Shown one piece after another: positions 43,212 to 45,366 of a stretch of 64,000 bases of DNA. The DNA is from Microcystis wesenbergii NRERC-220 (GTDB lineage Bacteria; Cyanobacteriota; Cyanobacteriia; Cyanobacteriales; Microcystaceae): NCBI RefSeq assembly GCF_032027425.1, contig NZ_JAVSJA010000001.1, positions 3,546,001 to 3,610,000 of the forward strand. The letters are read 5' to 3'. The position numbers and the translations under genes were made by a program. Under the pieces are notes generated by a model that did no database searches, was not told the origin of the DNA, and saw only the letters and a program-made list of their open reading frames with translations. Numbering within the stretch: position 1 is the first letter of the stretch; the number at the start of each line of letters is the position of its first letter.

Positions 43212-43332
43212 GTAGTTAGATATGTATAATCAATTGTGTCTAGCTGCTTACGACGCCTATTAATACTAGAGTATTAACCGTTTAGCCAAATGATTCGGCA
43301 ATTGCCAATAAACCCTAGAAGCGAGATTTCTC

Positions 43333-44196
43333 GTGAAAACTGACAGTCTCTTTTACCAAATCTTCCTGCGTTTTCCGGACAGTTTCTTTGACTTAATCGG
43401 ACAACCGCAACCGGGAGCAGCAAACTATCAATTCACCTCCCAAGAGGTGAAACAACTCTCTTTCCGTCTCGATGGCTTATTTATACCACTCAGAGAAGAT
43501 ATTCAGCAACCCCTCTACCTAGTGGAAGTGCAGTTCCAAGCGGACGACACCCTCTACTATCGACTTTTTGCGGAATTGTTCCTATTTCTAAAACAATATC
43601 AACCACCTCACCCCTGGCAAATTGTTGTCATTTATCCCCATCGTGGGGTGGAACGGGAACAATCGCTACATTTTGGCGAAATCCTCAATTTATCGAGTGT
43701 TAGACGCATTTATCTCGATGAATTGCCCCAGGTGTCCCATCCCTCCTTAGGAATCGGTGTGATTAAATTAGTAGTAGAGTCGGAAACGGCAGCGGTGAGG
43801 ACTGCTCAAACCCTAATCGAGCGCACCAGAGAAGAAATCACCGACCAGTCCAGTCAACGGCAGTTAATTGACCTAATCGAAAGTATCATCATTTACAAAT
43901 TCCCCCAGAAAAGTCGCGAGGAAATTGAAGCTATGTTTGGACTAAGTGATTTAAAACAGACGAGAGTCTATCAAGAGGCGCTGGCCGAAGGAGAAGAACG
44001 GGGTCTGCAAGAGGGGGAACGTCTGGTGGTGGAAAACCTGCTCCGAGTCCGTTTTGGTGAGTTAGACCCACCACTGCAAGCTATTATCAGCCGGATTTTA
44101 CAACTGTCTCCGGAAGAATTTACTCCTTTACTTCTCCATTGTTCTAAGCAGGAACTCTTAAAGCGATTTCCCCCAGAAAAGTCGCGAGGAAATTGA
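43333..44196 (+). CDS. Rpn-like (DUF2887) putative nuclease
   Basis: A 287-residue protein, start GTG. The PD-(D/E)XK-like core shows FRLDGLFIPL (Asp), LYLVEVQFQ (ExQ-type active site) and YYRLFAELFLFLKQYQP. FGEILNLSSVRRIYLDEL precedes the hinge (about 195-235). The C-terminal helical domain starts at an internal ATG (43933: MFGLSDLKQTRVY) that has GAGGAA nine bases before it. The last residues PPEKSRGN come from a re-use, in another frame, of DNA also found at the hinge, so the natural C terminus was altered by duplication. Rpn proteins are associated with DNA cleavage and phage defence; in E. coli the C-terminal part is also made separately as an inhibitor. Confidence 0.82.
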   Translation: MKTDSLFYQIFLRFPDSFFDLIGQPQPGAANYQFTSQEVKQLSFRLDGLFIPLREDIQQPLYLVEVQFQADDTLYYRLFAELFLFLKQYQPPHPWQIVVIYPHRGVEREQSLHFGEILNLSSVRRIYLDELPQVSHPSLGIGVIKLVVESETAAVRTAQTLIERTREEITDQSSQRQLIDLIESIIIYKFPQKSREEIEAMFGLSDLKQTRVYQEALAEGEERGLQEGERLVVENLLRVRFGELDPPLQAIISRILQLSPEEFTPLLLHCSKQELLKRFPPEKSRGN

Positions 44197-44254
44197 AGCT
44201 ATCACCCCCCTTATCAAGGGGGGAAGGGGGGATCGGCACCCCCCTTATCAAGGG

Positions 44255-44280
44255 TAGGGTTAATTCATGAATTAACCCTA
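44255..44280. repeat. 26-bp perfect palindrome (copy in each 493-bp unit)
   Basis: TAGGGTTAATTCA followed by its exact complement. Copies lie at 44748-44773 and 45241-45266. A fourth palindrome at 55570-55595 differs by a paired change (TAGGGTTGATTCA and complement), which keeps the stem perfect. Confidence 0.8.
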
Positions 44281-44377
44281 CTATGAGAGTTGATTGATGA
44301 ATTAGCCCTACTATGAGAGTTGATTGATGAATTAACCCTACTACTTCCCCCAGAAAAGTCGCGAGGAAATTGAAGCT

Positions 44378-44689
44378 ATGTTTGGACTAAGTGATTTAAA
44401 ACAGACGAGAGTCTATCAAGAAGCACTGGCCGAAGGAGAAGAACGGGGTCTAGAACGGGGTCTAGAACGGGGTCTAGAACGGGGTCTAGAACGGGGTCTG
44501 CAAGAGGGGGAACGTCTGGTGGTGGAAAACCTGCTCCGAGTCCGTTTTGGTGAGTTAGACCCACCACTGCAAGCTATTATCAGCCGGATTTTACAACTGT
44601 CTCCGGAAGAATTTACTCCTTTACTTCTCCATTGTTCTAAGCAGGAACTCTTAAAGCGATTTCCCCCAGAAAAGTCGCGAGGAAATTGA
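44378..44689 (+). CDS. Stand-alone C-terminal domain of the Rpn-like protein, copy 1
   Basis: A 103-residue protein identical to the C-terminal domain of the gene at 43333 except for four extra ERGL repeats in the hinge (LERGLERGLERGLERGLQEG). The ATG is preceded by GAGGAA at 9-bp spacing. It lacks the nuclease core entirely. By analogy with intragenic RpnS proteins it could bind and inhibit the full-length nuclease. It is more than chance because two copies keep the frame, ribosome-binding site and stop. It might alternatively be an unexpressed fragment. Confidence 0.55.
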   Translation: MFGLSDLKQTRVYQEALAEGEERGLERGLERGLERGLERGLQEGERLVVENLLRVRFGELDPPLQAIISRILQLSPEEFTPLLLHCSKQELLKRFPPEKSRGN

Positions 44690-44870
44690 AGCTATCACCC
44701 CCCTTATCAAGGGGGGAAGGGGGGATCGGCACCCCCCTTATCAAGGGTAGGGTTAATTCATGAATTAACCCTACTATGAGAGTTGATTGATGAATTAGCC
44801 CTACTATGAGAGTTGATTGATGAATTAACCCTACTACTTCCCCCAGAAAAGTCGCGAGGAAATTGAAGCT

Positions 44871-45182
44871 ATGTTTGGACTAAGTGATTTAAAACAGACG
44901 AGAGTCTATCAAGAAGCACTGGCCGAAGGAGAAGAACGGGGTCTAGAACGGGGTCTAGAACGGGGTCTAGAACGGGGTCTAGAACGGGGTCTGCAAGAGG
45001 GGGAACGTCTGGTGGTGGAAAACCTGCTCCGAGTCCGTTTTGGTGAGTTAGACCCACCACTGCAAGCTATTATCAGCCGGATTTTACAACTGTCTCCGGA
45101 AGAATTTACTCCTTTACTTCTCCATTGTTCTAAGCAGGAACTCTTAAAGCGATTTCCCCCAGAAAAGTCGCGAGGAAATTGA
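44871..45182 (+). CDS. Stand-alone C-terminal domain of the Rpn-like protein, copy 2
   Basis: The second tandem copy, with the same 103-residue product as 44378-44689 and the same GAGGAA site. The near absence of differences between the copies points to a very recent duplication or ongoing gene conversion. It is followed by hairpins and the bidirectional terminator shared with the S-layer-like gene. Confidence 0.55.
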   Translation: MFGLSDLKQTRVYQEALAEGEERGLERGLERGLERGLERGLQEGERLVVENLLRVRFGELDPPLQAIISRILQLSPEEFTPLLLHCSKQELLKRFPPEKSRGN

Positions 45183-45282
45183 AGCTATCACCCCCCTTAT
45201 CAAGGGGGGAAGGGGGGATCGGCACCCCCCTTATCAAGGGTAGGGTTAATTCATGAATTAACCCTACTATAACCCACTAGGG

Positions 45283-45334: not shown

Positions 45335-45366
45335 AAAGACCATCCTGAAAAAGGATGGCCTTTTAT
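45335..45366. terminator. Bidirectional rho-independent terminator
   Basis: Stem CCATCCT / AGGATGG (45340-45346 / 45352-45358). It is followed on the plus strand by CCTTTTAT and on the minus strand by GTCTTTTTTC. It serves the minus-strand S-layer-like gene, whose stop is at 45401, and the plus-strand array. Confidence 0.75.

Follow-up and report, generated by a model that had tools for sequence, protein, structure and literature searches.

The number of 4-aa repeats in stand-alone antitoxin-like genes (S) is decoupled from that in the adjoining Rpn-family nuclease genes (L) across the loci that we counted in cyanobacteria and E. coli. The reading that we tentatively favour is that the Microcystis locus described here is an RpnL/RpnS-type locus whose stand-alone S genes serve as orphan antitoxins to different alleles of L. 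The locus lies in a window of 64,000 nucleotides of Microcystis wesenbergii NRERC-220, taken from an assembly of 4.68 Mb in two contigs. The features of the window are as follows.

43333..44196, + strand: L, Rpn-family nuclease gene of 287 aa with a GTG start and one repeat, identified by profile matches
43918..43923, + strand: GAGGAA, ribosome-binding site of the internal start, with a 9-nt spacer and then the ATG at 43933
43933..44196, + strand: internal reading frame of L from an in-frame ATG, a predicted RpnS-like antitoxin of 87 aa with one repeat
44378..44689, + strand: S1, stand-alone copy of the L C-terminal domain, 103 aa, five repeats
44871..45182, + strand: S2, stand-alone copy of 103 aa, identical in DNA to S1
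44345..44379, + strand: 35-bp start cassette of S1, located by exact matches
44203..44344, + strand: filler between the domains, consisting of a C-rich repeat and a palindromic interspersed repeat (GTAGGGTTAATTCATGAATTAACCCTAC)
44440..44499 and 44933-44992, + strand: 12-bp repeats encoding RGLE units in S1 and S2, respectively
43294..43311, + strand: 18-bp relic of an S copy upstream, comprising its 3' end (FGNCQ stop) and matching the tail of the M. viridis upstream S

L scored 80.8 bits against TIGR01784 (cut-off 52.1) and 264.9 bits against DUF2887, in agreement with a preliminary description of this DNA, made from the sequence, that had called it an Rpn-like DUF2887 gene. Residues D46, E64 and Q66 (counted from the second codon) were invariant across 49 aligned sequences, chosen out of 76 collected, and we take D46 and E64-x-Q66 to be the catalytic residues. 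Both profiles and the invariant residues thus place an Rpn nuclease domain of the PD-(D/E)XK kind at the N terminus of L. In RpnL/RpnS systems, the C-terminal domain is a dimerising bundle of three helices. Pfam DUF4351 matches at the locus reached 18.8 and 20.6 bits, under the Pfam cut-off of 25, and a solved-structure search with E. coli RpnC as the query gave no useful match. PADLOC returned no match for L and matched S to one 'putative invertase' model (E=0.0011). An identity of S as FliH was rejected, the NCBIfam matches being far under their cut-offs.

E. coli RpnS is made from an internal start and blocks RpnL (Zhong et al., PMC10327210). The window L likewise has an in-frame internal start with a ribosome-binding site ahead of its C-terminal domain, and the ATG at 43933 with GAGGAA 9 nt ahead was found just as the preliminary description had it. 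AGGAR (AGGAA or AGGAG) preceded the internal methionine in 101/101 distinct L ORFs with an [RQ][EKQ]E motif, a set consisting only of L ORFs that have this motif ahead of the methionine. Where the internal site encodes Glu-Glu, the first codon was GAG in 80 of 80 cases, compared to 48 of 169 other Glu-Glu pairs in the same genes. When one gene was taken per 70%-identity cluster, AGGAR was present in 24/24 and GAG came first in 17/17 pairs, compared to 23/50 elsewhere; a smaller count of 85 L ORFs gave the same start-site picture. The codons adjoining the internal ribosome-binding site vary, and the internal methionine is invariant among the 49 aligned sequences. A looser signature that did not demand the motif, and by which 12 further ORFs got no methionine, detected AGGAR in 85 of 87 ORFs and CGGAG in the remaining two. 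Frames without AGGAR were the L gene of locus L186 (AAGTGAG) and two short frames of locus L291 (GAAGAGG). Judged from sequence, the internal ribosome-binding site is conserved beyond the needs of the protein, which looks like selection for a site inside the gene. This conservation would extend internally started Rpn antitoxins to the cyanobacterial DUF2887 nucleases.

Two complete 103-residue genes, at 44378 and 44871 in 493-bp units, had been reported previously, and both were found, with an S1-to-S2 spacing of 493 bp. Outside the repeats, the internal frame of L and S1 are separated by two synonymous changes and the protein identity is 100%. The sole protein difference between the window S and the L domain is four extra 12-bp units, equal to 16 aa (five repeats versus one). 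The 35-bp cassette with the ribosome-binding site has six exact copies in the window: those at 43900, 44345 and 44838 precede an ATG, and those at 44168, 44661 and 45154 lie 3' of each domain, whose final codons and stop they encode in a different frame. In 23 of 24 S-L pairs, selected from 34 collected S-L rows plus one copy of genome G010, S-to-L homology ended at a point 14-135 nt ahead of the ATG, the window S stopping at 39 nt. The exceptional pair (599 nt, locus L305) resembles a decayed L. AGGAR was retained in all 24 S copies walked, and in several cyanobacterial genera, as well as in E. coli rpnE, the copies have a comparable boundary shortly before the ribosome-binding site. Because homology ends at this distance, the copies begin a little ahead of the translation signal in several genera. 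S is therefore a copy of the internal frame, cut upstream of its ribosome-binding site, and the earlier proposal that the intragenic frame had been copied out as extra genes is borne out. A fragment that begins shortly before the internal ribosome-binding site and runs to the gene end would have been copied out, probably via recombination between 35-bp cassettes, with tandem duplication afterwards.

The stand-alone S genes, with start signals of their own, are probably translated. The pN/pS of 0.30 from pairwise comparison of nine stand-alone copies was considered as a sign of constraint and then discounted as purifying selection on S, because much of the variation is common to the L copies and the singleton changes in S (two nonsynonymous, one synonymous) show no constraint. 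A promoter or terminator between the S copies was considered and rejected: the five promoter-like sites detected, compared to 2.4 expected by shuffling, are all on the - strand. A single terminator-like site on the + strand lies 3' of the array, at 45340, and the total of terminator-like sites is at expectation. A perfect 28-nt palindrome, GTAGGGTTAATTCATGAATTAACCCTAC, occurs at 44254-44281, 44747-44774 and 45240-45267 of the window. The palindrome and neighbouring filler repeats have dozens of related matches elsewhere in the genome.

The array is flanked in sister genomes by the same ORF of about 506 aa, which is presumably methyltransferase-like. M. viridis FACHB-1342 (G007) has the order S-L-S, with eight repeats in L and six and five in S. 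Genome G010 has L-S-L-S-S and in addition a truncated S, with five and six repeats in the L genes and eight, eight and one in the S genes. G002 has S-S and no L of the window subfamily, and G001 has one 11-repeat S next to an ORF related to the one downstream in the window, the stretch before this S being masked. In G003, a presumably TnpB-like ORF of 402 aa interrupts an L remnant at a related locus, with pieces on either side (loci L247 and L189). For G003 and G008, the contig terminates within the locus or close to it. The complete S frames at this locus number 10 (two in the window, two in G007, three in G010, two in G002 and one in G001), compared to one truncated S, in G010. Homology of the window to locus L105 begins at 43293, just before the upstream S-tail relic, and we infer from this relic that an S copy formerly lay upstream of the window L and has since been lost. 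The preliminary description proposed a comparison of copy number across strains; among Microcystis species, the L/S arrays at this locus do differ. Arrays with more than one S are real and recurrent here, and the fact that other species have arrays at this locus that are related yet distinct argues against an assembly artefact.

Other Rpn loci were also seen. In the source genome, locus L110 (G000:C1:1386000-1395000) has three tandem L genes, two of them with identical C-terminal domains, and then an S-like ORF whose C-terminal domain differs. At cyanobacterial loci L131-L193, the L proteins have a similar nuclease and linker and unlike C-terminal domains, the switch lying just past the internal start region. 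These domains are DUF4351-like or, in one form, carry LLALGLTVEQIAQALDL, which resembles a helix-turn-helix.

At the window locus, each copy has 1 to 11 of the 4-aa repeat units, which start at about residue 21-22 of the domain. Variable 4-aa repeat number is a property of RpnL/RpnS, and the start seen here is just beyond the published range of 8-20 residues after the internal methionine (PMC10327210). Only RpnS of equal repeat number blocks RpnC, and one extra repeat abolishes inhibition (Zhong et al., PMC10327210), a pairing rule drawn from a single published pair, E. coli RpnC plus one repeat. We compared the repeat number of each S with that of the neighbouring L. In a second Microcystis subfamily, the combinations were L 6/S 4, L 4/S 3, L 5/S 3, L 2 and 6/S 3, and L 2/S 5, and the S and L repeat numbers of Nostocales and others in the shuffle test were all unequal. 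E. coli rpnE and ypaA were unequal at each of the 17 S-bearing loci (12 of them distinct in repeat sequence), as were rpnC and the separate S at all 10 (8 distinct), in a non-random sample made up of 17 of 60 evenly spaced rpnE rows (L317 being without S) plus K-12, and 10 of 60 rpnC rows. In K-12, the rpnE domain has no repeats compared to one in YpaA (locus L222, 5634-5999). RefSeq lists K-12 ypaA as a pseudogene and rpnE as inactive, and flags most of the fetched rpnE-downstream frames as incomplete. K-12 ypaA and the other rpnE-downstream frames are open from the ATG, and tagged K-12 YpaA protein has been detected (Zhong et al., PMC10327210).

The null for these comparisons was obtained by shuffling S between loci within each subfamily. 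Of 40 S copies from cyanobacteria and E. coli, among them K-12 ypaA, none equalled the neighbouring L (4.6 expected, P=0.003), with the S of locus L233 scored as five rather than six letters owing to its anchor, which slightly lowers the expectation. With repeated pairs counted once, one locus added and L233 scored as six, 0 of 35 matched (4.0 expected, P=0.008). Cyanobacteria alone gave 0/20 (3.6 expected, P=0.006), or 0/18 in a thinned count (2.9 expected, P=0.026). Single families gave P=0.39 for rpnE, P=0.87 for rpnC and 0.03, or 0.10 when thinned, for the window family. The shuffle test omits L174/L284, L289 and L305, which are mismatched and have no sister locus for shuffling, and L110 and L186, where S is only 52-64% identical to the adjoining L genes. 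A spurious 40-aa match in locus L121 and a 29-aa truncated copy in locus L106 were dropped from the counts. Active avoidance of a matched repeat number is suggested and goes no further than that, because hardly any family is significant alone (the window family, in the first count only). Since single-family avoidance is mostly non-significant, independent drift of the fast 12-bp repeats explains much of the mismatch. G010 and G002 each have an S whose repeat segment is the same as that of the window L, and the segment of the window S is the same as that of an L in G010. Likewise, in E. coli, the L segment of locus L227 is that of the S in L228, L229 and L234.

We favour reading S as an orphan antitoxin because the S repeat classes of one strain occur in the L of another. 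The persistence of S in G002 without an L of its subfamily was counted for the same reading. From homology and start-site conservation, the L nuclease would be silenced by the S made from its own internal start. Repeat number differs between S and L, in what would be the helix that sets pairing specificity, and because of this difference the stand-alone S is predicted not to dose-inhibit the adjoining L, provided that such specificity operates in this family. Instead, S would neutralise L of other repeat numbers, such as sister-strain alleles arriving by recombination or transfer, and the array would act as a small bank of orphan antitoxins. S2 of the window, an exact recent duplicate of S1, may be neutral. 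The broader proposition, that selection keeps the stand-alone rpnS genes of cyanobacteria and E. coli out of register with the adjoining L and that they form an immunity repertoire in repeat number, seems to us rather doubtful.

The main rival to the orphan-antitoxin reading is that copying and loss are driven by short direct repeats and by interspersed palindromes, and that S genes are role-less remnants, translated or silent, whose 12-bp repeats drift fast. The exact recent duplicate in the window, an array that differs from species to species, the copies in G010 and G003 that are cut short or interrupted and the S-tail relic upstream of the window L are all consistent with such turnover, as are the unconstrained singleton changes in S and the mismatch that, within single families, is mostly not beyond chance. 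Mismatched copies may also recombine less with L and so survive longer. Against it stand the similar boundary near the ribosome-binding site in several cyanobacterial genera and E. coli rpnE, and the 10 complete S frames for one truncated S at this locus; we consider this explanation somewhat unlikely.

The preliminary description had taken the S copies as a raised inhibitor dose, that is, as extra cognate antitoxin for the adjoining L. The complete identity of the S protein to the L domain outside the repeats, the start signals retained in S copies and the finding that E. coli produces YpaA (Zhong et al., PMC10327210) would fit this role. However, a dose role predicts matched copies and therefore fails on the counts: the window S has four more repeats than the L domain (1 versus 5 and 5), and none of the S copies counted has the repeat number of its neighbouring L (0/40 overall). 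In addition, one added repeat abolishes inhibition in E. coli RpnC (PMC10327210), and K-12 YpaA exceeds the domain of RpnE itself by one repeat. We regard a dose role as improbable. There is similarly little to recommend S as a store of repeat cassettes, in which recombination donors change the L repeat number and switch the L/S register, since a silent donor needs no translation signals and these are kept in the 24 pairs walked, even though the L repeat classes of one strain are S classes of another and G010 has mixed L and S arrays.

Origins outside the chromosome were also examined. A phage-borne anti-Rpn decoy was rejected: tblastn with the S protein against 50,697 phage records gave 0 matches at E 1e-3. 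The 87-aa domain of L had no match in viral_contigs, in a scan that finds close relatives only. A plasmid-borne S was rejected as well, because none of the 32 matching plasmid records covers 80% of the 87-aa query; among the 20 of 32 matches listed, coverage was 55-57%.

Separate downstream rpnS genes have been published in E. coli, namely ypaA/rpnES beside rpnE and a second rpnCS, and are described as one copy per locus in the available text of Zhong et al. (PMC10327210). The basic layout of L with a separate S is therefore not new. The preliminary description's claim of an undescribed tandem antitoxin array stands in part: separate downstream rpnS genes are on record, and the published loci, as far as the available text of PMC10327210 goes, are single-copy. 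Among the papers listed for RpnS, DUF4351 and Microcystis Rpn, mostly from outside subscription journals, we found no other relevant one, and neither systematic S-L mismatch nor a tandem S array is mentioned in the available text of PMC10327210. If stand-alone RpnS mismatch the adjoining nuclease, a new role has to be sought for what has been published as a second antitoxin copy, one testable in E. coli K-12, where RpnE and YpaA are one repeat apart. If true, the 4-aa repeat number would be a countable code for toxin-antitoxin specificity and inter-strain conflict.

The Microcystis locus resembles E. coli RpnL/RpnS, as presented in the available text of PMC10327210, in its internally started C-terminal domain, its 4-aa repeat variation and its separate S downstream. 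The repeat mismatch of the separate S with the adjoining L is found in E. coli too and is absent from that text. In contrast to the E. coli loci as described there, Microcystis has at least two tandem S with interspersed-repeat filler. The rpn arrays of Zhong et al. (PMC10327210) arose by tandem direct duplication of rpn regions; the window array is also a tandem direct duplication, but of the antitoxin part only. Two further differences from E. coli are that the nuclease part is of the DUF2887 type and that S also occurs upstream of an L, in two species. Type II orphan or anti-addiction antitoxins have no matching toxin and could protect against an incoming one. Unlike these, the window S adjoins a near-identical toxin, from which it differs only in repeat number.
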